The position numbers and the translations under genes were made by a program. Below are positions 17,276 to 26,723 of a stretch of DNA of 33,314 nt, one piece after another (the stretch's first letter is position 1; each line of letters opens with the position of its first letter). Origin of the DNA: an uncultured Mucispirillum sp. (lineage in GTDB: Bacteria > Chrysiogenota > Deferribacteres > Deferribacterales > Mucispirillaceae); contig CALUWN010000020.1 of the NCBI GenBank assembly GCA_944324495.1, forward strand, positions 1 through 33,314. Reading direction: 5' to 3'. The notes beneath the pieces are model-generated. The model was not told the origin of the DNA, searched no databases, and saw nothing but the letters and a program-made list of their open reading frames with translations.

Positions 17276-18814
17276 TTATTGCTCGCTAATGCTTACATAC
17301 TGTTTGAAAACCCAGCCAGTAAGTGTAGGTGATAAGCGAATTTCTACCCACTCATCATTTTCTTGTATATATTCAAATTTCTGCCCTAATTTTGCAGCCC
17401 CAACTCGTACTGCTTCAAGGCTTGGTGAAGAACGCACATTTAATGAGTTTGCTAATATATATACATCTTTTTTAACAATCACAGGCTCAACAGGAGCTGG
17501 TGCCACAGGTGTTTCTATAACAGGAGTTTGCGTAACTGGTGCTTCTATAACTGGCTCTGGAATATTTTGCTGTGCAACAGCTGGCGTTTCCTGCTCTGGT
17601 GCAGGTGTAACAGGAGCTGGAGCAACAGGTGAAGGTGTCACAGGCTCAGGAGTAACTGGTGTTTGCTCTGCTAAAATATTATTTGCAGTATTTTGGGCTG
17701 CCTGAGTATCTGTATTATCTACCATATTATTTTGAGCTGTTTCTACAGGTTCATTTTCCACATGCTCTGCTTTTATATTTTCATGCTCATTTACTGCTTG
17801 AGCATTATTTTCATTTTGTTCTACTACAGCTTTATTATCTGGTTCAACATTATTTGAAGCCACATATACTGGTGCTTCTTTTTTAAAGCTTGAAAGGATT
17901 TTATCAACCCCAAGATAGCCTACTAAAATAGCAAGTACACCAATAACTGCTACTACTGCAAGAGGTTTTGCTTTTAGATTTGACCCTTTTCTGCCAGCTG
18001 CTATTACATGGTTAATACTAGAAATTGCATTACGTAAATGCTCTTCTGTAATTGTGTGAGAATCATCTAAAAAGGCTGCAATAATTGTCCTATCCATCAG
18101 TGTATTAATTAAACGCGGGTTACCTCGTGTTATTTTTGCAATCTTTCTAATTACTCCACGCTGTATTTTAATGTGGCCTTTACCTGCTTTATCAAGATGA
18201 GAATATATATAATCTTTTATATCTTCATCTTTTATATTATAAAGTTTTACATATAATGTTACACGCTGTTTTAACTGCCTTAACCCTTCATCGTTTAATT
18301 TTGCATCAAGTTCAGGCTGGCCTGCTAAAATGATTTTTAAAAGTTTATCTTTTTCAGTTTCTAAGTTTGATAAAAGGCGAAGTTCCTCTAATGTTTCATT
18401 AGGTAAATTCTGTGCCTCATCAATAATAATAACAGCCTTTTTGCCTTGAGAGCCAATATCTATTAAAAAATCTCTTAATCTTGCAAAAAGAGCATTTTTT
18501 GTTAATGTTTTATCAACATGTATATCAAAATCTTCCAGTATTGCCATAAAAAGTTCTTCTGGTGTAAGGTTTGGAAATAAAATATATGCTGAAACTATAT
18601 TTTCAGGAAGTTCATTTATAAATTTTTTAATTGTAATAGTTTTACCAGTTCCCGGCTCACCTGTTAAAACTACAAATGGTTCATCTGAATGGATAAGATA
18701 TGATAATGTGTCTAATGCCTCTAAGTGCATTTTTGTAGGATAGTAAAATTCCACATCAGGAGTTCTTTTAAAAGGGTCCTGATAAAAGCCAAAAAATTCC
18801 GTAGATGTTCTCAT
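17276..18814 (-). CDS. ExeA/GspA-type AAA ATPase with a periplasmic SH3 domain
   Basis: A 512-residue inner-membrane protein. A cytoplasmic AAA domain (about 1-270) has Walker A GEPGTGKT (52-59), Walker B AVIIIDEAQNL (about 127-137) and the start typical of ExeA (FFGFYQDPFKRTPD). A single membrane segment follows (about 284-304), then a long Pro/Ala/Val/Thr/Glu linker (about 315-440) with repeats such as TPVTPEPVTPSP, and a C-terminal bacterial SH3 domain (about 446-512, SLNVRSSPSLEAVRVG). In ExeA the periplasmic part binds peptidoglycan and helps place secretin machines; here an SH3 domain probably does so. It lies 46 bases after the fapA-like gene and 16 bases before trkA. No secretin gene is nearby, so the machine it serves is unknown. 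Confidence 0.85.
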   Translation of the reverse strand: MRTSTEFFGFYQDPFKRTPDVEFYYPTKMHLEALDTLSYLIHSDEPFVVLTGEPGTGKTITIKKFINELPENIVSAYILFPNLTPEELFMAILEDFDIHVDKTLTKNALFARLRDFLIDIGSQGKKAVIIIDEAQNLPNETLEELRLLSNLETEKDKLLKIILAGQPELDAKLNDEGLRQLKQRVTLYVKLYNIKDEDIKDYIYSHLDKAGKGHIKIQRGVIRKIAKITRGNPRLINTLMDRTIIAAFLDDSHTITEEHLRNAISSINHVIAAGRKGSNLKAKPLAVVAVIGVLAILVGYLGVDKILSSFKKEAPVYVASNNVEPDNKAVVEQNENNAQAVNEHENIKAEHVENEPVETAQNNMVDNTDTQAAQNTANNILAEQTPVTPEPVTPSPVAPAPVTPAPEQETPAVAQQNIPEPVIEAPVTQTPVIETPVAPAPVEPVIVKKDVYILANSLNVRSSPSLEAVRVGAAKLGQKFEYIQENDEWVEIRLSPTLTGWVFKQYVSISEQ

Positions 18815-18860
18815 GTTTTTATTAATGCCTCATTTATAAATTAATTTATATTATTCCTAA

Positions 18861-20399
18861 TTAACAGCTTGCTGATATAGGTTTATTAACAATCTCACGT
18901 GCGTATTCGTTGTAGGTAAACTCTACCCTTGTCATCTCAGATTTAATTATTCTGCTTACTCCCAAAATTTTAAGCTCAACACCGGGATATATTGTATCTT
19001 CCACAGTAATTCTTGGTGCATCACATACAGATTTTGAATTTAAATCATTATATTTTTTTTCAAGCAGTTGCAGCCTTCTTTTAAAAGCATCTGCACTATC
19101 TATTAACATTTTTACTTTTGGGTTGTTTTGTATTTTTGGGTCAGAAATATTTAATTTTGATAATGCTTCACTTATTCTGCTGATAGAGTCACTAAGCTGA
19201 GTAATCTCCACCTTAACTTTTTCAGCCTTAGCCTGCAAAAGTGGTGAATAACCAAGAGCAACTTCCATTCTGCCAGAACTTTTAGAGCCTATTTTAGATA
19301 CTTTTATAGTAGAAAACGCCTTAATCTCACCGCCATTAATAATAGTATCTTTGCCGTTTGCTACAATGCTGTTTGCTTCAATTGTAGAATTGTAGCAGTA
19401 TTTTTCAATGGAAAGTTCTCCACCTGTTGAAATACGTGCATTTTCGCCATATCCTATGGAAACATTACCGCCTGCTTTTACAAACCCTTTACTAATAATA
19501 CCCTTAATACCACGGCGTATAACAATAGTATTACGTGCTTTAAGCTCCGCATTTTCTACAATACCATCAACAATAATATCATCAGCCTCTATTATAAATC
19601 CACTTTGTACATTACCTGTTATATGAATAGTGCCTTCAAAACGGATATTACCTATACGCATATCCACATCGCCATCAATTTGTAAAAGTGGCAGCACCGT
19701 AATAGTATCACCTGATAGAATTATATGACCATTATATTTGGAGCGGAACTCAGTTTTTTCAAGATTTGCGTAAACTCCATCTACAACTTCTACCTGCCTG
19801 TCCATACCTTCAACAGCCTTTATAACATTGCCAGTAATATCTCTGCCATCTTTTCCTTTATCTGCAGGTGTGCGTTTTATAATGAGCTGGTCTTTTTGCA
19901 CAAATATGAATTTAGTAAACTCTTTATAGTCTACTTTACCATTTGGAAGAAGTTTTGGTTTAACACTTGGGCGTTCAAAAAGGTATTCTATAACAGCATT
20001 TTTTCCATGAACTGGTGGGTTACCCCTGCATACTGTAACACCTTCTACTATAAAACCTTCGTTTAAAAGATTAACAGCATCCTGTAACGCTTTATCATCA
20101 ATATAGCCAGGGCTTACTTTGTGCTTTTCTGTAAGCATAAATGCAACTTGCTGATATGATATTTTTTTATCATTATTAATGCCGGGATACAGCGATATTC
20201 TTGCCGTAAGCATATCATCTGATATAACAAACCTAATAATAGGCTCAATCATACGGATAGTTTTGACTTCAAGTATATAATCCCCATCTTTAGCAGAGGA
20301 CGGCAGCACTCTGTATTCTTCATTTGGCAACGTATAAACATTACGCGCTGCAAAATCCAGCTTATGCTTATCCTGCTCACCAGCAAGCTTAATAGTCAT
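18861..20399 (-). CDS. fapA: FapA/DUF342 family protein
   Basis: A 512-residue soluble protein of the FapA (DUF342, COG1315) family. A mixed N-terminal domain (about 1-200) is followed by a right-handed beta-helix (about 225-380, with stacked Gly/Asn turns such as ITGNVQSGFIIEADDIIVDG) and a coiled coil (about 385-455), then a short C-terminal strand domain. The name comes from a flagellar assembly protein in Vibrio, but the biochemical role is not settled. GGAG lies six bases before the ATG. A sigma-54-like promoter at 20484-20498 lies about 85 bases upstream, which supports a flagellum-related regulon. It heads the transcript to the GspA-type ATPase and trk genes. Confidence 0.82.
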   Translation of the reverse strand: MTIKLAGEQDKHKLDFAARNVYTLPNEEYRVLPSSAKDGDYILEVKTIRMIEPIIRFVISDDMLTARISLYPGINNDKKISYQQVAFMLTEKHKVSPGYIDDKALQDAVNLLNEGFIVEGVTVCRGNPPVHGKNAVIEYLFERPSVKPKLLPNGKVDYKEFTKFIFVQKDQLIIKRTPADKGKDGRDITGNVIKAVEGMDRQVEVVDGVYANLEKTEFRSKYNGHIILSGDTITVLPLLQIDGDVDMRIGNIRFEGTIHITGNVQSGFIIEADDIIVDGIVENAELKARNTIVIRRGIKGIISKGFVKAGGNVSIGYGENARISTGGELSIEKYCYNSTIEANSIVANGKDTIINGGEIKAFSTIKVSKIGSKSSGRMEVALGYSPLLQAKAEKVKVEITQLSDSISRISEALSKLNISDPKIQNNPKVKMLIDSADAFKRRLQLLEKKYNDLNSKSVCDAPRITVEDTIYPGVELKILGVSRIIKSEMTRVEFTYNEYAREIVNKPISASC

Positions 20400-21423: not shown

Positions 21424-22039
21424 TAATAATTTCCATAAGTTTTAAAGCATCATCATAAGGTTTTTTAGATGCACAAAGATATGATGAAACAGCTAACCCT
21501 GTAACCTGTGATGAAAGCACATCTTTTGCATTTATGCTGTTAATACCGCCTATTGCAACAGCAGGAATCTTTAACATACTATTTAATGAAAATATACCCT
21601 CTGCCCCTAAAACTGCCCTGTGGTCTTTTTTTGTGGAAGTATCAGTATATGGCCCAATACCTGCATAATCTGCGTAATCATTAGCAAGTAATACATCATC
21701 TTCATTATTACAGGAATAACCTAAAATCAAACCTTTATTATTTTGCCTAATCTCTTTAATATGGCCGTCTTTATAACTTAAATGAAGCCCGTCTGCACCT
21801 AATTTTAATGCAAGCTCTAAACTATCATTCATTATAAATAACGCATTATAATCTGATGTGATTTTTCTAACGATTTGTGCTGTTTTGATTTTTTCTTCAT
21901 AAGGCTGATATTTGTTTCGCAGCTGTACAACACCTGCACCTGCACTTAAAACTTCCTTTAAAAATTCATCTAAAGGAAGTTTAAGCATATCTGTTTCTAA
22001 TACAATATAGAGTTTTAAACAAGATGATAAATTCATCAC
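21410..22039 (-). CDS. thiE: thiamine-phosphate synthase
   Basis: Joins the pyrimidine diphosphate and the thiazole phosphate to make thiamine monophosphate. The 209-residue TIM barrel has GVVQLRNK, the substrate-binding NDSLELALKLGADGLHLS, GYSCNNEDDV, ADYAGIGPYTDTSTK (the phosphate/thiazole loop) and VAIGGINSINAKDV. The start is GTG 22039 or ATG 22036, both overlapping the stop of the csd4-like gene; GGAG is too close for a normal ribosome site, so translation is probably coupled to the gene before. No thiamine-diphosphate riboswitch is visible; thiE and thiL lie at the end of a mixed operon. Confidence 0.92.
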   Translation of the reverse strand: MMNLSSCLKLYIVLETDMLKLPLDEFLKEVLSAGAGVVQLRNKYQPYEEKIKTAQIVRKITSDYNALFIMNDSLELALKLGADGLHLSYKDGHIKEIRQNNKGLILGYSCNNEDDVLLANDYADYAGIGPYTDTSTKKDHRAVLGAEGIFSLNSMLKIPAVAIGGINSINAKDVLSSQVTGLAVSSYLCASKKPYDDALKLMEIINERV

Positions 22040-23589
22040 TCCAGCTCAACAAATATCTTTGCTATATTTTTATTTTTACTGCTGTCTACTGCAACAACAG
22101 GGTATAATTTGCCGTCTTTTCTAACAGAATATTTTTTCAACATATTTTTTGGAGGGAAGATTATTTCATAGCCTCTGTCATCGCCGTCATTTGACCTTAA
22201 ATCATCAGGAAACCAGCCTTTAAAGTTAATAGCTATATTATAATCTTTTACCTGTGCACTAAAAAGTTTTACAAACACTACTTTTGAGCCATCTAGTATT
22301 CTTATACTATCCCCGTTCTTAACATATACATCTTTGTTATTTATAAGCAGATGAAAATATTTTTCACCGGGCTCTATTTTTGTAAGTTTTTCTTCATGCT
22401 TTGTAATATTATTAAGCTTTTGTTGTTCCACTTGAACTTCTATTTCTTCTTGATGAACTTTTTGTTCAACTACTTTTTCTGCTTTTTTAACTTTTGGTTC
22501 AACTGCTTTTATTTTCACTTCACCCATAACAATATTATCTTTTCTAAAAATGATTTTATTGTTTTTAGTAACAGTATATTCTTTATCAATATCATTTAAG
22601 TTACCAAAATTCATAATATCACATGTTAAACCGCGTTTATGGTTTGCAAATATCTCCGTTACTTTTATGGTTGAACCTTTTTCTACTGTAATCTCCTTAC
22701 CACCACGTATAAATTTTTCCATATCACCTGTTTTTATAACAGCACCAACAAATTCAGGTTTATATGTATGAGTATTTGGATACTCTATTTCAATACCTAA
22801 ATTTTTCATAAACTCATTAATCACATAGTTATGGTAAAGCACGTTTTTATCAAGCTTCATATTTTTAGAGCCTTCTATACCAAAAGCAGGTATACATAAA
22901 TCAGCTACCGCATACCATGTGGCAGACTTTCTCATCCCTTTAAATCGTGTTGTGCTTTTACTTGTTTCTGTATTAAAATAATGTTTTTTAGGGTCATCAT
23001 CTGGAATTTTAGCATTAGCTGCATCCATTGCTTTTCTAGCCATTTCACCAAGTTTTAACACTCTGCCGTCTTTACAGGTATATTCTTCTTCATCCACAAT
23101 AACTGAATAGCCAAACCTATCAGGGCTTTTATGCCAGCTAATATGTTCTGGATAATGGTAGCCCCAGCCGTCATGCAGGTTTAAAAACATATCTGATTCT
23201 TTCATATATTCTTTGATTTTATTTACAATATCACCCTGCCAGTCATCTGGAGCCTGTTCAAAAAGCCTGTTCATATCCACGCCTTTTACTTCCCTGTTAT
23301 AAAGCATAATAGAATAAAAATTTGTACGTGGTATAACTATTAAATTACCTTTTTCAAGCTTTATGTCAGCATATGAATCAGCAGATAAAAAGCCACCGGG
23401 CTCATCTCCTTGTATGCCGCCAATAATCAGCATTGTAGGGCCATCCTGCCTGCCATATATTTTATAAACTTCTAATTCATGGTTTGTGCCTTTAAAAAAA
23501 ACTTCCCTTTCTGTAGAAGGTCTTGTAACAGCAAAACTATAATCAATAAATGAAAATAATATTATTACTAAAAAAGCAAATACTCTCAA
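22036..23589 (-). CDS. csd4: M99-type peptidoglycan carboxypeptidase, Csd4/Pgp1-like
   Basis: Predicted to trim peptidoglycan tripeptides to dipeptides in the periplasm. Counting from the TTG start, a signal peptide (1-20) is followed by the peptidase domain, where the zinc site is Gln-x-x-Glu (IQGDEPGG, Gln60 and Glu63) with His139 in LNLHDGWG. Glutamine in place of the usual histidine marks the M99 (Csd4) subfamily. KGVDMNR supplies substrate-binding Asn-Arg, and FGIEGSK holds a likely catalytic Glu239. The C-terminal half is strand-rich. TTG 23589 is preferred because GGAG lies six bases upstream; ATG 23601 lacks a site. It overlaps the stop of the csd6-like gene, its likely partner. The symbol is by resemblance. 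Confidence 0.78.
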   Translation of the reverse strand: MRVFAFLVIILFSFIDYSFAVTRPSTEREVFFKGTNHELEVYKIYGRQDGPTMLIIGGIQGDEPGGFLSADSYADIKLEKGNLIVIPRTNFYSIMLYNREVKGVDMNRLFEQAPDDWQGDIVNKIKEYMKESDMFLNLHDGWGYHYPEHISWHKSPDRFGYSVIVDEEEYTCKDGRVLKLGEMARKAMDAANAKIPDDDPKKHYFNTETSKSTTRFKGMRKSATWYAVADLCIPAFGIEGSKNMKLDKNVLYHNYVINEFMKNLGIEIEYPNTHTYKPEFVGAVIKTGDMEKFIRGGKEITVEKGSTIKVTEIFANHKRGLTCDIMNFGNLNDIDKEYTVTKNNKIIFRKDNIVMGEVKIKAVEPKVKKAEKVVEQKVHQEEIEVQVEQQKLNNITKHEEKLTKIEPGEKYFHLLINNKDVYVKNGDSIRILDGSKVVFVKLFSAQVKDYNIAINFKGWFPDDLRSNDGDDRGYEIIFPPKNMLKKYSVRKDGKLYPVVAVDSSKNKNIAKIFVELE

Positions 23590-24944
23590 ATTCCTCTCCA
23601 TGTTTCAGACTTAATCTTAAAAAACGCTGGACAGCCTGAAAGTTTTAATGTTTTTATTCCTTTATCTTTTACACTGCCTGAAGAATATTCCTGCATAAAT
23701 TCAACAGTATATACTCCTTTTGAATAATACCATTTAATATTAGAAATATTTAATGTTATAGGTATATTTTGTGCAAAAATGGCAGATTTTTTCTCTTTCC
23801 ATTTTAAATAATTATCTCTTCCTGATTTAAAAGTTAAATCATAATTTTCCATATATTTATCAATATCTTGAGATTTCCATGAAGAAGCCCAGTTATTAAC
23901 AAATGCTTTTATCTCATTATCTAAAAACGAAGCTGAAGTAACAGGTTTTGAACGCACTTCCTCACTTATTAATTTTAAACTGCCGTTTTCATCAATAAAA
24001 TAATATCTTTTATTAGTAAAAGTTGTTAAGTTTGGTGCACAGTAAAACTGCTCTGTATCTACAACTGCATATTTTTCATCTTTTATGAAATATTTTGTAT
24101 TCATATTTCTAATATCTTTTTGTGGGTAGATATCCATAAGGGTTGTTTTTGTTGCAGTGTATGCTTTTTTAGTTGTTCCACCAAAAGTTTTAAAATTTGT
24201 ATGGACTGCATCTCTAAATGCCTGCTTATTATTTTTTTCCCATGCAGTCATAAAATCATTAAATGCTTTTTCCACCTTTGATTTTGTGCTTTCATAATTA
24301 TACTCATCTGTATACATTAATTTTTCTGCAATAATAGTAGGTGTGGTTACTTTTATATTTTTAAAAAGCGTGTTAAAATGAGTGTTATTCATAGCAACAC
24401 AACCTTGAGTATATGTTTTATCTAAATCTGGTTTAACGCCGTGCAGCCATATACCGCCGCCAGTTTTTTTCTCTATTCTATCCACCATATTTGGATAGTT
24501 TAATGGGAAAGAGCCAGCCCCATATATTAACGCATAATCGCCATATCTTTTTACAAGCTCATCACCTGAAGAATATGATAATACATAATATACGCCTTCT
24601 GGAGTTTTCTCATCACCCCTTTTAATCTTATTACCGTCAACCCTGCCTGTAAGAATAGGAAATTCTTCTAAAACTTCCATATCATTTCCTTTAAGGCGTG
24701 CAATATACAATCTTTTTAATGATTTATCCACAAGTACAACATTAGTTTCTTCTGCACCATTACCAGATAAATTAGCAATAGTGTTTTTCCCAAGCCTGCT
24801 TTTAGCCTCTGGTGCTTGGTTTTCAATTACTTCTTTAGATACATCTTCTTTTTTTACTTTTGCATCTTCTGGCACTTGTTCATAACCATAACTTATGGAA
24901 GATGAAACAAAAAGAATGCATAATATTGCATAAATTATTCTCAT
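23586..24944 (-). CDS. csd6: YkuD-type L,D-carboxypeptidase/transpeptidase with NTF2-like repeats, Csd6/Pgp2-like
   Basis: Predicted periplasmic enzyme that trims tetrapeptides to tripeptides (Csd6/Pgp2) or makes L,D-crosslinks. Counting from ATG 24944, a signal peptide (1-20) and a short charged linker precede a YkuD domain (about 65-210) with the motif GIWLHGVKPDLDKTYTQGCVAM; the catalytic His168 and Cys182 are intact. Two NTF2/SnoaL-like repeats follow (about 220-335 and 345-450), where Helicobacter Csd6 has one. GGTGAT lies five bases before ATG 24944; an ATG at 24956 overlaps the RsmF stop. Its neighbour is the M99 enzyme that would act on its product, which favours the Csd6-type role over a generic crosslinking enzyme. 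Confidence 0.75.
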   Translation of the reverse strand: MRIIYAILCILFVSSSISYGYEQVPEDAKVKKEDVSKEVIENQAPEAKSRLGKNTIANLSGNGAEETNVVLVDKSLKRLYIARLKGNDMEVLEEFPILTGRVDGNKIKRGDEKTPEGVYYVLSYSSGDELVKRYGDYALIYGAGSFPLNYPNMVDRIEKKTGGGIWLHGVKPDLDKTYTQGCVAMNNTHFNTLFKNIKVTTPTIIAEKLMYTDEYNYESTKSKVEKAFNDFMTAWEKNNKQAFRDAVHTNFKTFGGTTKKAYTATKTTLMDIYPQKDIRNMNTKYFIKDEKYAVVDTEQFYCAPNLTTFTNKRYYFIDENGSLKLISEEVRSKPVTSASFLDNEIKAFVNNWASSWKSQDIDKYMENYDLTFKSGRDNYLKWKEKKSAIFAQNIPITLNISNIKWYYSKGVYTVEFMQEYSSGSVKDKGIKTLKLSGCPAFFKIKSETWRGI

Positions 24945-24949
24945 TCTTA

Positions 24950-26308
24950 TCACCATTCTATATTTTTTCCATATAAAAAATATCTATCCAGCTTATTTTT
25001 TATAGTATTTTCTATTTTTTTACCATACCCTACAGGTATATTGTTATAATATAAAAGTTCGTTATTATAATTATCATTGCAGGATATGTCAAACCCTTTC
25101 ATATAATTTTTGCTAAATTCATAAGAAATATTATATTTCATATTTTCTTTTGTATAATTTCCAAGCTCCCAAACACTTTGACATGTTGGCTCATATATTT
25201 TACCAGTATCCTTATATAAATTTAGCCCACGCCTTTTAAAACGTATGTTTTTAAATATTTCTGGTGCTGTTTCAATATAGCCTTTTCTATCCACTTCTTT
25301 TATACTTATATGGTCATGGCTATATTCTGGAAAATATTTTTTAAAAAATTCTTCCTCTTTTTTACTTAATTTTGTATGTATGAAATCATAGGGTATTAGC
25401 TCGCCTTTTTTAGCAATAGCTGCAGCAAAAAAGCCGTCTATATTATCTTTATCTGGCATAATGCGTGCAACATTTTCATCTATCTCATCTATTCCTGAAA
25501 GACCTTTGCCATATTCTTTTCCACATGGTAAAAGATAGGCATCAGAAAATTCATCTAATAATTTTTTTACAACCATTTCATTTTCTTCTAAACTTAAAGT
25601 GCAGGTAGAATAAACAAGCACACCGCCAGATTTTAAACAAGAAAAGGCAGATTTTATTAATTGAAATTGAAGTTCAGCCATACGGCATACAAGCTCTTTG
25701 CCCCATGAAGCCTGCACTGTTTTATTACGAAATATTTTATTTTCATTGGAGCAAGGAGCATCAAGCAAAATACCATCAAAAGAATTTTCAAAATATTTTG
25801 GCAAAAGCCTGCCATCAAGGGATATGGTTTTTACATTATATGCACCGTATTTTTCCAAATTAAAATGAAGTGATTTTAACCTGCTTGATGATATTTCATT
25901 GGCAACTATCACACCTTTTCTATTTGTCATATCAGAAAGGGCACAAGTTTTACCACCGGGGGCAGATGATACATCAAGCATAACAGGGTTTTGCCCCATA
26001 TAAGACATTAATATTTTAGCAGGTGCTAAAGATGACGGGTTCATAATATATGCACCACCTGTTTGAAACGTGATGCTTTCTACTATATTTTCTTTTTCTT
26101 CCACCACTTTATACATATTTTCATACTGACTAAGGCTTTCAAGACTGCTTATGCTTTCTAGCTCCTGCATATAATCAATATTTCTGCATTTGCTTAAACG
26201 TATATGGCGAGCTTTCGGGCATGACAGCCCATATTCAAACTCATCATATCTATCTTTTAAAAGTGGTTTATATTCTTTTCTAAAAAGTTCAAGCCAATTA
26301 TTTTCCAT
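24950..26308 (-). CDS. rsmF: RsmF/NOL1-NOP2-Sun-type rRNA cytosine-C5 methyltransferase
   Basis: Predicted S-adenosylmethionine-dependent enzyme making 5-methylcytosine in 16S rRNA. The methyltransferase core (about 70-280) shows the SAM loop DVSSAPGGKT, motif IV LLDAPCSNE and motif VI VYSTCTLSLEENE, with both Cys (PC and TC) needed for release and attack. A C-terminal region (about 285-452) is like the RNA-binding extension of RsmF/YebU rather than RsmB, which has an N-terminal NusB domain absent here. RsmF is therefore favoured, but the exact target base is unproven. ATG 26308 is chosen as GGTG lies six bases upstream; ATG 26320 is an alternative. It is the first gene of the operon to thiL. 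Confidence 0.85.
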   Translation of the reverse strand: MENNWLELFRKEYKPLLKDRYDEFEYGLSCPKARHIRLSKCRNIDYMQELESISSLESLSQYENMYKVVEEKENIVESITFQTGGAYIMNPSSLAPAKILMSYMGQNPVMLDVSSAPGGKTCALSDMTNRKGVIVANEISSSRLKSLHFNLEKYGAYNVKTISLDGRLLPKYFENSFDGILLDAPCSNENKIFRNKTVQASWGKELVCRMAELQFQLIKSAFSCLKSGGVLVYSTCTLSLEENEMVVKKLLDEFSDAYLLPCGKEYGKGLSGIDEIDENVARIMPDKDNIDGFFAAAIAKKGELIPYDFIHTKLSKKEEEFFKKYFPEYSHDHISIKEVDRKGYIETAPEIFKNIRFKRRGLNLYKDTGKIYEPTCQSVWELGNYTKENMKYNISYEFSKNYMKGFDISCNDNYNNELLYYNNIPVGYGKKIENTIKNKLDRYFLYGKNIEW

Positions 26309-26468: not shown

Positions 26469-26723
26469 ATGGAATATTCAACTATTAGCGTTAGAATTGA
26501 TAAAGAAAACAAACAAGCCTTTGATAAGTTTTGTAATGATGTTGGTATGAATACATCTACTGCAATATCATTATTTATAAAAGCAGTATTGCGAAATAAC
26601 TGCATACCATTTGAAATATCTACAGACCCATTTTATTCAAAATCAAACATGGAACATTTAAAAAGAGGTATCTCTGCAATTAATGAAGGAAAAGGCAGAG
26701 AACATGATTTAATTGAAGAGTAA
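26469..26723 (+). CDS. RelB/DinJ-family antitoxin, no toxin next to it
   Basis: An 84-residue ribbon-helix-helix protein. The N-terminal strand and helices (STISVRIDKENKQAFDKFCNDVGMNTSTAISLFIKAVLRNN) are the standard RelB/DinJ DNA-binding dimerisation domain, followed by IPFEI and a C-terminal tail INEGKGREHDLIE of the kind that wraps a RelE/YafQ-type toxin. GGTG lies four bases before the ATG. The next 120 bases hold no toxin gene; the dprA promoter begins 66 bases after the stop. It is likely a solitary antitoxin whose toxin was lost or lies elsewhere, perhaps acting as a plain repressor. Confidence 0.8.
   Translation: MEYSTISVRIDKENKQAFDKFCNDVGMNTSTAISLFIKAVLRNNCIPFEISTDPFYSKSNMEHLKRGISAINEGKGREHDLIEE

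Follow-up and report, generated by a model that had tools for sequence, protein, structure and literature searches.

The window analysed here is a 33,314-base contig from an uncultured Mucispirillum sp. (genome total 2.43 Mb). It carries two neighbouring minus-strand genes, one for a YkuD protein with two NTF2-like domains (YkuD-NTF2) and one for a predicted zinc carboxypeptidase of the M99 family. Both open reading frames (ORFs) were confirmed by an ORF read-out of the window, and the pair is a conserved unit in several bacterial phyla. The two genes and their overlap are as follows.

23586..24956, minus strand: YkuD-NTF2 ORF, encoding a signal peptide, a YkuD domain and two NTF2-like domains (Pfam, PDB and AlphaFold/fold matches)
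22036..23601, minus strand: M99 DL-carboxypeptidase gene, Csd4/Pgp1-like, with signal peptide (Pfam, PDB, Foldseek)
23586..23601, minus strand: 16-bp overlap of the YkuD and M99 reading frames (ORF coordinates)

Relatives of the YkuD protein align best from the second ATG of its ORF, which makes position 24944 the probable start, as the first-pass annotation of this DNA had assumed. The 16-bp frame overlap likely couples the translation of the two genes, and frame overlaps or abutments of the same kind are found in other Deferribacteres loci.

Predicted chemistry of the two proteins

The YkuD-NTF2 protein matches the Pfam profiles YkuD (1.3e-15) and, over two stretches, Cds6_C (NTF2; 1.4e-20). 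Its PDB sequence matches are Bd1075 of Bdellovibrio (7o21, 1e-33), Csd6 (4xzz, 3e-14) and Pgp2 (6xj6, 2e-13). The AlphaFold model, with a predicted local distance difference test score (pLDDT) of 93.4, gives the same order, the best fold match being Bd1075 (TM-score about 0.9, normalised on Bd1075), followed by Csd6 and Pgp2. The first-pass annotation had compared the protein with Csd6/Pgp2; Pfam, PDB and fold matches agree on that resemblance, and Bd1075 is nearer still. The domains are placed as follows.

24330..24743, minus strand: YkuD catalytic domain (Pfam), with catalytic His172-Gly173 (His at 24441-24443) and Cys186 (24399-24401)
23937..24305, minus strand: first NTF2-like domain (second Cds6_C match, E 1e-7, at 23958-24272; model)
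23589..23936, minus strand: second NTF2-like domain, with a putative peptidoglycan-binding pocket (Y368, F376, K390, K435, E451, Y424, W453)

His172, Gly173 and Cys186 are invariant in all 61 YkuD relatives. Position 188, an Arg in most L,D-transpeptidases, is Ala in the window protein and Ala, Ser or Val, rarely Gly or Thr, in the relatives; Arg occurs in 0/61. In Csd6 and Pgp2, too, the YkuD domain lacks the transpeptidase Arg and has Ala at the second position past Cys, and the pocket residues are the same, but each has a single NTF2 domain where the window protein has two. Bd1075 also has one NTF2 domain, and Val, not Ala, near the Cys. From these residues and the model, the YkuD-NTF2 protein is predicted to be of the LD-carboxypeptidase type. 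The YkuD profile match would also suit an L,D-transpeptidase making 3-3 cross-links or a DpaA-like amidase that detaches lipoproteins; there is a weak LdtF/DpaA match, and among YkuD folds DpaA ranks directly below Bd1075, Csd6 and Pgp2. However, the matches to the three known LD-carboxypeptidases are far stronger, the residue at position 188 disfavours a plain L,D-transpeptidase, and the protein is paired with an enzyme that uses the LD-carboxypeptidase product. We regard either activity as improbable. The other YkuD protein of the genome (L177:6133-6699(+)) reads TEGCIAV, likewise without the transpeptidase Arg, so that this genome may have no classical L,D-transpeptidase.

The second NTF2-like domain retains the pocket residues of characterised relatives. 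Pgp2 Y233, F242, K257 and K307 map to Y368, F376, K390 and K435, and Bd1075 Y274 and W303 map to Y424 and W453, the C-terminal pocket Trp being common to Bd1075 and the window protein. All six are nearly invariant in the 61 relatives. The equivalence of E451 to Pgp2 E324 is deduced from position. For this mapping, and for that of the M99 protein, the Pgp2 and Csd4 sequences were partly taken from the PDB-search alignments. Substitutions at the four Pgp2 positions impair helical shape in C. jejuni (PMC8038945). The Y274/W303 region of Bd1075 is required for targeting, and its mutation mislocalises the protein (PMC8938487); that paper does not mention Csd4.

The downstream protein matches Pfam Peptidase_M99 (PF17033) at 6.2e-33, with 114.8 bits against a curated cut-off of 27, and H. 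pylori Csd4 among the PDB sequences (4q6m, 2e-23). The top five Foldseek matches of its AlphaFold model (pLDDT 89) are all Csd4 (2.8e-27), and the fold ranked next (1e-10) is some 16 orders of magnitude behind. The alignment is full-length, with 504 columns, and the relative placement of the domains differs (root-mean-square deviation 11 Å). Two C-terminal beta domains in the model complete the three-part architecture of carboxypeptidase, beta-barrel and immunoglobulin (Ig)-like positions.

22786..23463, minus strand: M99 carboxypeptidase domain (Pfam, PDB alignment, residue mapping)
22501..22752, minus strand: central beta domain, in the place of the Csd4 beta-barrel domain (model strands; Foldseek)
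22369..22500, minus strand: charged low-confidence linker between domains 2 and 3 (pLDDT < 50 at residues 376-399)
22039..22368, minus strand: C-terminal beta domain, in the place of the Csd4 Ig-like domain (model, Foldseek; weak collinear phmmer match to Csd4 341-420)

The zinc ligands Q64, E67 and H143, the oxyanion Arg103 and the general base E243 correspond to Csd4 Q46, E49, H128, R86 and E222, whose catalytic and metal-binding roles have been described (PMC4220969). E67, R103, H143 and E243 are invariant in 65/65 M99 proteins, and Q64 is Gln in 62 of them. The other three, Chrysiogenia-like proteins (L033, L035, L037), have His for the zinc-ligand Gln (GIHGDE), the change found in the Csd4 Gln46His variant structure 4wcm. 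With the QxxE...H site, the catalytic Arg and Glu and the full-length architecture in common with Csd4/Pgp1, the M99 protein is probably a zinc DL-carboxypeptidase of that type. It differs from them in about 30% catalytic-domain identity, in its separate subfamily in the tree and in a longer linker before the C-terminal domain. The Gln-x-x-Glu zinc site noted in the first-pass annotation thus maps onto that of Csd4, and the profile comparison between M99 and ordinary M14 that it had proposed came out for M99. A deacylase or peptidase of the ordinary M14 or AstE/AspA type would share the superfamily fold, and weak AstE_AspA and DoeB matches were obtained. The scores are far apart, however (6e-33 for M99 against 0.006 for AstE_AspA; 3e-27 for Csd4 against 1e-10 for the next fold), and the zinc motif and three-part architecture also speak for M99, which makes such an assignment very improbable.

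Linkage of the pair within and beyond the phylum

Within Deferribacterota, the M99 and Cds6_C profiles each found 44 of the 51 phylum genomes, and these are the same 44. The genes are adjacent in 41/41 Deferribacteres that have both (34 loci read, the window and six judged from coordinates). The three most distant genomes keep both genes unlinked, and two 1.3-Mb genomes of another family also have both.

The linkage extends well beyond this phylum. A scan of GTDB contigs gave at least 541 places encoding relatives of the window M99. The best 80, which we examined, come from Deferribacterota, Nitrospirota, Gammaproteobacteria, Neomarinimicrobiota, Desulfobacterota-type deltaproteobacteria and one Methylomirabilis. 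In 76 of these 80, a profile search placed YkuD-NTF2 upstream of M99 and on its strand. Of the remaining four, three sit at the end of a contig or on a short one, and the fourth, from Methylomirabilis, is without YkuD-NTF2. In an even draw of 148 Desulfobacterota-group genomes, 29 had M99 above the cut-off, and YkuD-NTF2 was adjacent in 18 of the 26 loci read. The five loci of this group with the highest, Csd4-like M99 scores have no adjacent YkuD-NTF2. A tree, in which several nodes are weakly supported, parts those five and Csd4 (the sole Csd4 sequence included) from the mostly linked subfamily that holds the window M99.

The first-pass annotation had supposed that the two genes otherwise lie at separate loci. 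Our counts contradict this, as do Frirdich et al. (2014, PMC3961634), who place pgp1 and pgp2 within 300 bp of each other in Nitratiruptor, Nautilia profundicola, a Desulfococcus and Persephonella marina, and report that pgp2 was found via STRING co-occurrence. For C. jejuni 81-176 they give separate loci (cjj81176_1344 and _0915), so that Pgp2 there differs from the window protein in being encoded apart from the M99 gene; gene linkage in Campylobacterota was taken from the literature. Since the adjacency was published in 2014, the pair as such was already known. The taxa listed there do not include Deferribacterota, Nitrospirota, Neomarinimicrobiota or Gammaproteobacteria, and the parts consulted give no bactofilin or adaptor linkage. 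As far as open-licence papers show, the new points are how broadly the linked subfamily is spread, the tandem arrangement of NTF2 domains and the linkage to bactofilin and a candidate adaptor described below.

In the window, the pair lies in a tight minus-strand run in the order rsmF-like gene, ykuD-ntf2, m99, thiE and thiL. Five consecutive genes overlap, thiE and thiL among them, and the pair overlaps the rsmF-like gene upstream and thiE downstream. Adjacency in one genome is therefore no functional signal by itself, and conservation across phyla is the signal. The earlier argument that gene neighbourhood supports a common pathway thus fails for the overlap in this single genome, where flanking genes overlap too, but holds for the linkage kept across phyla. 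Dense operon packing in a small genome could have produced five overlapping genes by chance. However, across several phyla the two genes remain linked even as every other neighbour changes, and we give chance packing almost no weight.

The end of the rsmF-like gene contains a perfect sigma-70-type promoter, some 120 bp upstream of the pair.

25064..25092, minus strand: promoter TTGACA-17-TATAAT

A perfect -35/-10 promoter is expected 0.05 times by chance in the window. This one was found in 8/8 Mucispirillum-genus genomes compared, a conservation to which the coding sequence could contribute. Elsewhere in the window, just downstream of thiL (17276-20399), are a FapA-type beta-solenoid protein and an XrtA/PEP-CTERM-type ATPase with an SH3 domain, and a RelB/DinJ-type antitoxin gene lies at 26469-26723.

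Bactofilin and a candidate membrane adaptor

Two further genes recur beside the pair in other phyla. In 17 of the 80 loci, M99 is followed at no more than about 130 bp by a gene for bactofilin, a cytoskeletal protein known to determine cell shape, and 29 of the 80 encode a bitopic protein between YkuD-NTF2 and M99. Bactofilin is present in 7/26 Desulfobacterota and 3/4 Nitrospirota loci, counts that share some loci with the 80; in the three from Nitrospirota its gene lies upstream and there is no YkuD. Examples with bactofilin downstream of M99 are L112, L117, L123, L124, L125, L127, L129 and L134, and L211-L213 have it upstream. The bitopic protein has an N-terminal cytoplasmic stretch, one membrane helix, a coiled coil and a periplasmic beta domain, and no Pfam family matched it above the cut-off. 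In two loci the beta domain is fused to YkuD-NTF2 (L208:4771-6312(-), L209:5121-6854(-)).

The arrangement resembles the bactofilin-LmdC module (PMC10945521), in which the N-terminal region of LmdC binds bactofilin. The M99 genes of Desulfobacterota and Nitrospirota often stand with bactofilin and the bitopic protein, whose N-terminus resembles the bactofilin-binding end of LmdC-type M23 proteins, but this protein has a beta domain where LmdC has an M23 peptidase, and the window cluster has neither gene. The N-terminus (hairpin-like stretch, helix and coiled coil) matches Deferribacterota proteins, the best at 1.4e-6, and three of these resemble M23 peptidases when the full ORFs are judged by eye. 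We considered and rejected these proteins as adaptor homologues, as the alignment search matched the N-terminal part only and the three full ORFs are M23-like. That search gave no match in the window genome, which does encode an M23 protein with an N-terminus similar to that of the adaptor. The only bactofilin gene of this genome is on another contig, after parA-parB-like genes (L176:7135-7521(-)). Because helix and coiled-coil composition may inflate the match, we put forward the adaptor role as a hypothesis.

Bactofilin and a bitopic protein with an LmdC-like N-terminus beside the pair tie the trimming pathway to the bactofilin shape machinery. Searches of open-licence literature found nothing relevant on a bactofilin-M99 operon. 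We tentatively suggest, as a view that we think somewhat more apt to fail than to hold, that bactofilin guides a widespread machinery for cell curvature, of which the pair forms the periplasmic arm. A bitopic adaptor with an LmdC-like cytoplasmic N-terminus would link the filaments to local trimming from tetra- to tri- to dipeptide. On this view, the operon with both genes linked would be the usual arrangement, from which the dispersed genes of Helicobacter and Campylobacter would derive.

Proposed role in stem-peptide trimming and cell curvature

The counterparts of these two enzymes give Helicobacter and Campylobacter cells their helical form. Homology and residue conservation make the following mechanism likely. 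The YkuD-NTF2 enzyme would remove D-alanine as an LD-carboxypeptidase, converting tetrapeptide to tripeptide, and its NTF2 domain(s) would position it on the wall. The M99 enzyme would remove meso-diaminopimelic acid as a zinc DL-carboxypeptidase, converting tripeptide to dipeptide. Spatially biased trimming would alter the cross-linkable stems and bring about curvature or helicity of the sacculus. The pair is probably co-expressed from the conserved promoter and overlapping frames, and in Mucispirillum-like bacteria the output would be spiral shape. We infer the activities, the order of the steps and the role in shape, and put the probability at roughly 0.78 that the co-expressed pair carries out consecutive periplasmic trimming steps that give curvature or helicity, and spiral shape in Mucispirillum-like bacteria.

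The distribution of the pair supports the role in shape, since its Deferribacterota carriers belong to a phylum of curved rods or spirals (PMC12887300). Both genes are present in the vibrio-shaped Calditerrivibrio and the vibrioid Denitrovibrio. According to the 2014 study, pgp1, not pgp2, is mostly confined to curved or helical bacteria (PMC3961634). Flexistipes sinusarabici (2,526,590 bp), a non-motile straight to acutely bent rod, has neither gene. The site in this species keeps its hypF- and rsmF-like flanks and, compared with a sister genome, has lost a block in which the pair is accompanied by a chemoreceptor gene and two GGDEF genes, one of them for a regulator. We therefore rejected the co-loss as independent evidence of shared function, since the loss of the larger block, chemotaxis and GGDEF genes included, counts as one event. 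With this block loss in one informative named species, the correlation of the pair with shape across the phylum is suggestive.

Several points weigh against the proposed trimming-and-curvature role: this single-species comparison and its joint loss; described cell shapes for a minority of the uncultured carrier genomes; the thiamine and ribosomal RNA-methylation genes, with no shape gene, beside the pair in the window; and the place of the window M99 in a divergent, mostly linked subfamily, with a catalytic domain about 30% identical to that of Csd4. The same chemistry would also serve wall turnover, recycling or avoidance of host NOD recognition, with shape set otherwise. Loss of Pgp1 alters host IL-8 responses (PMC4220969), and many free-living carriers of the unit are of undescribed shape. 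However, the conserved NTF2 pocket is of the kind by which shape enzymes are targeted or activated, the unit is linked in other phyla to bactofilin and to a putative membrane adaptor of bactofilin type, and free-living curved Deferribacterota also carry the pair, which argues against host evasion. We consider such a purely turnover or evasion role unlikely. The analysis supports the family assignments and the conserved active sites and NTF2 pocket, and likewise the first-pass suggestion of the same chemistry in a bacterium outside Campylobacterota. The word helical, with which that annotation described the shape, is too narrow; vibrioid bacteria are carriers as well.

The question at stake is how a cell directs stem-peptide trimming to one of its sides. 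If the proposed role is true, the bactofilin-adaptor-M99 clusters would be a direct, testable candidate for the aiming device, and the same chemistry would curve vibrioid bacteria in several phyla as well as spiral gut bacteria like Mucispirillum. The tandem-NTF2 variant would then allow one to ask whether one domain targets the enzyme while the other tunes its activity.

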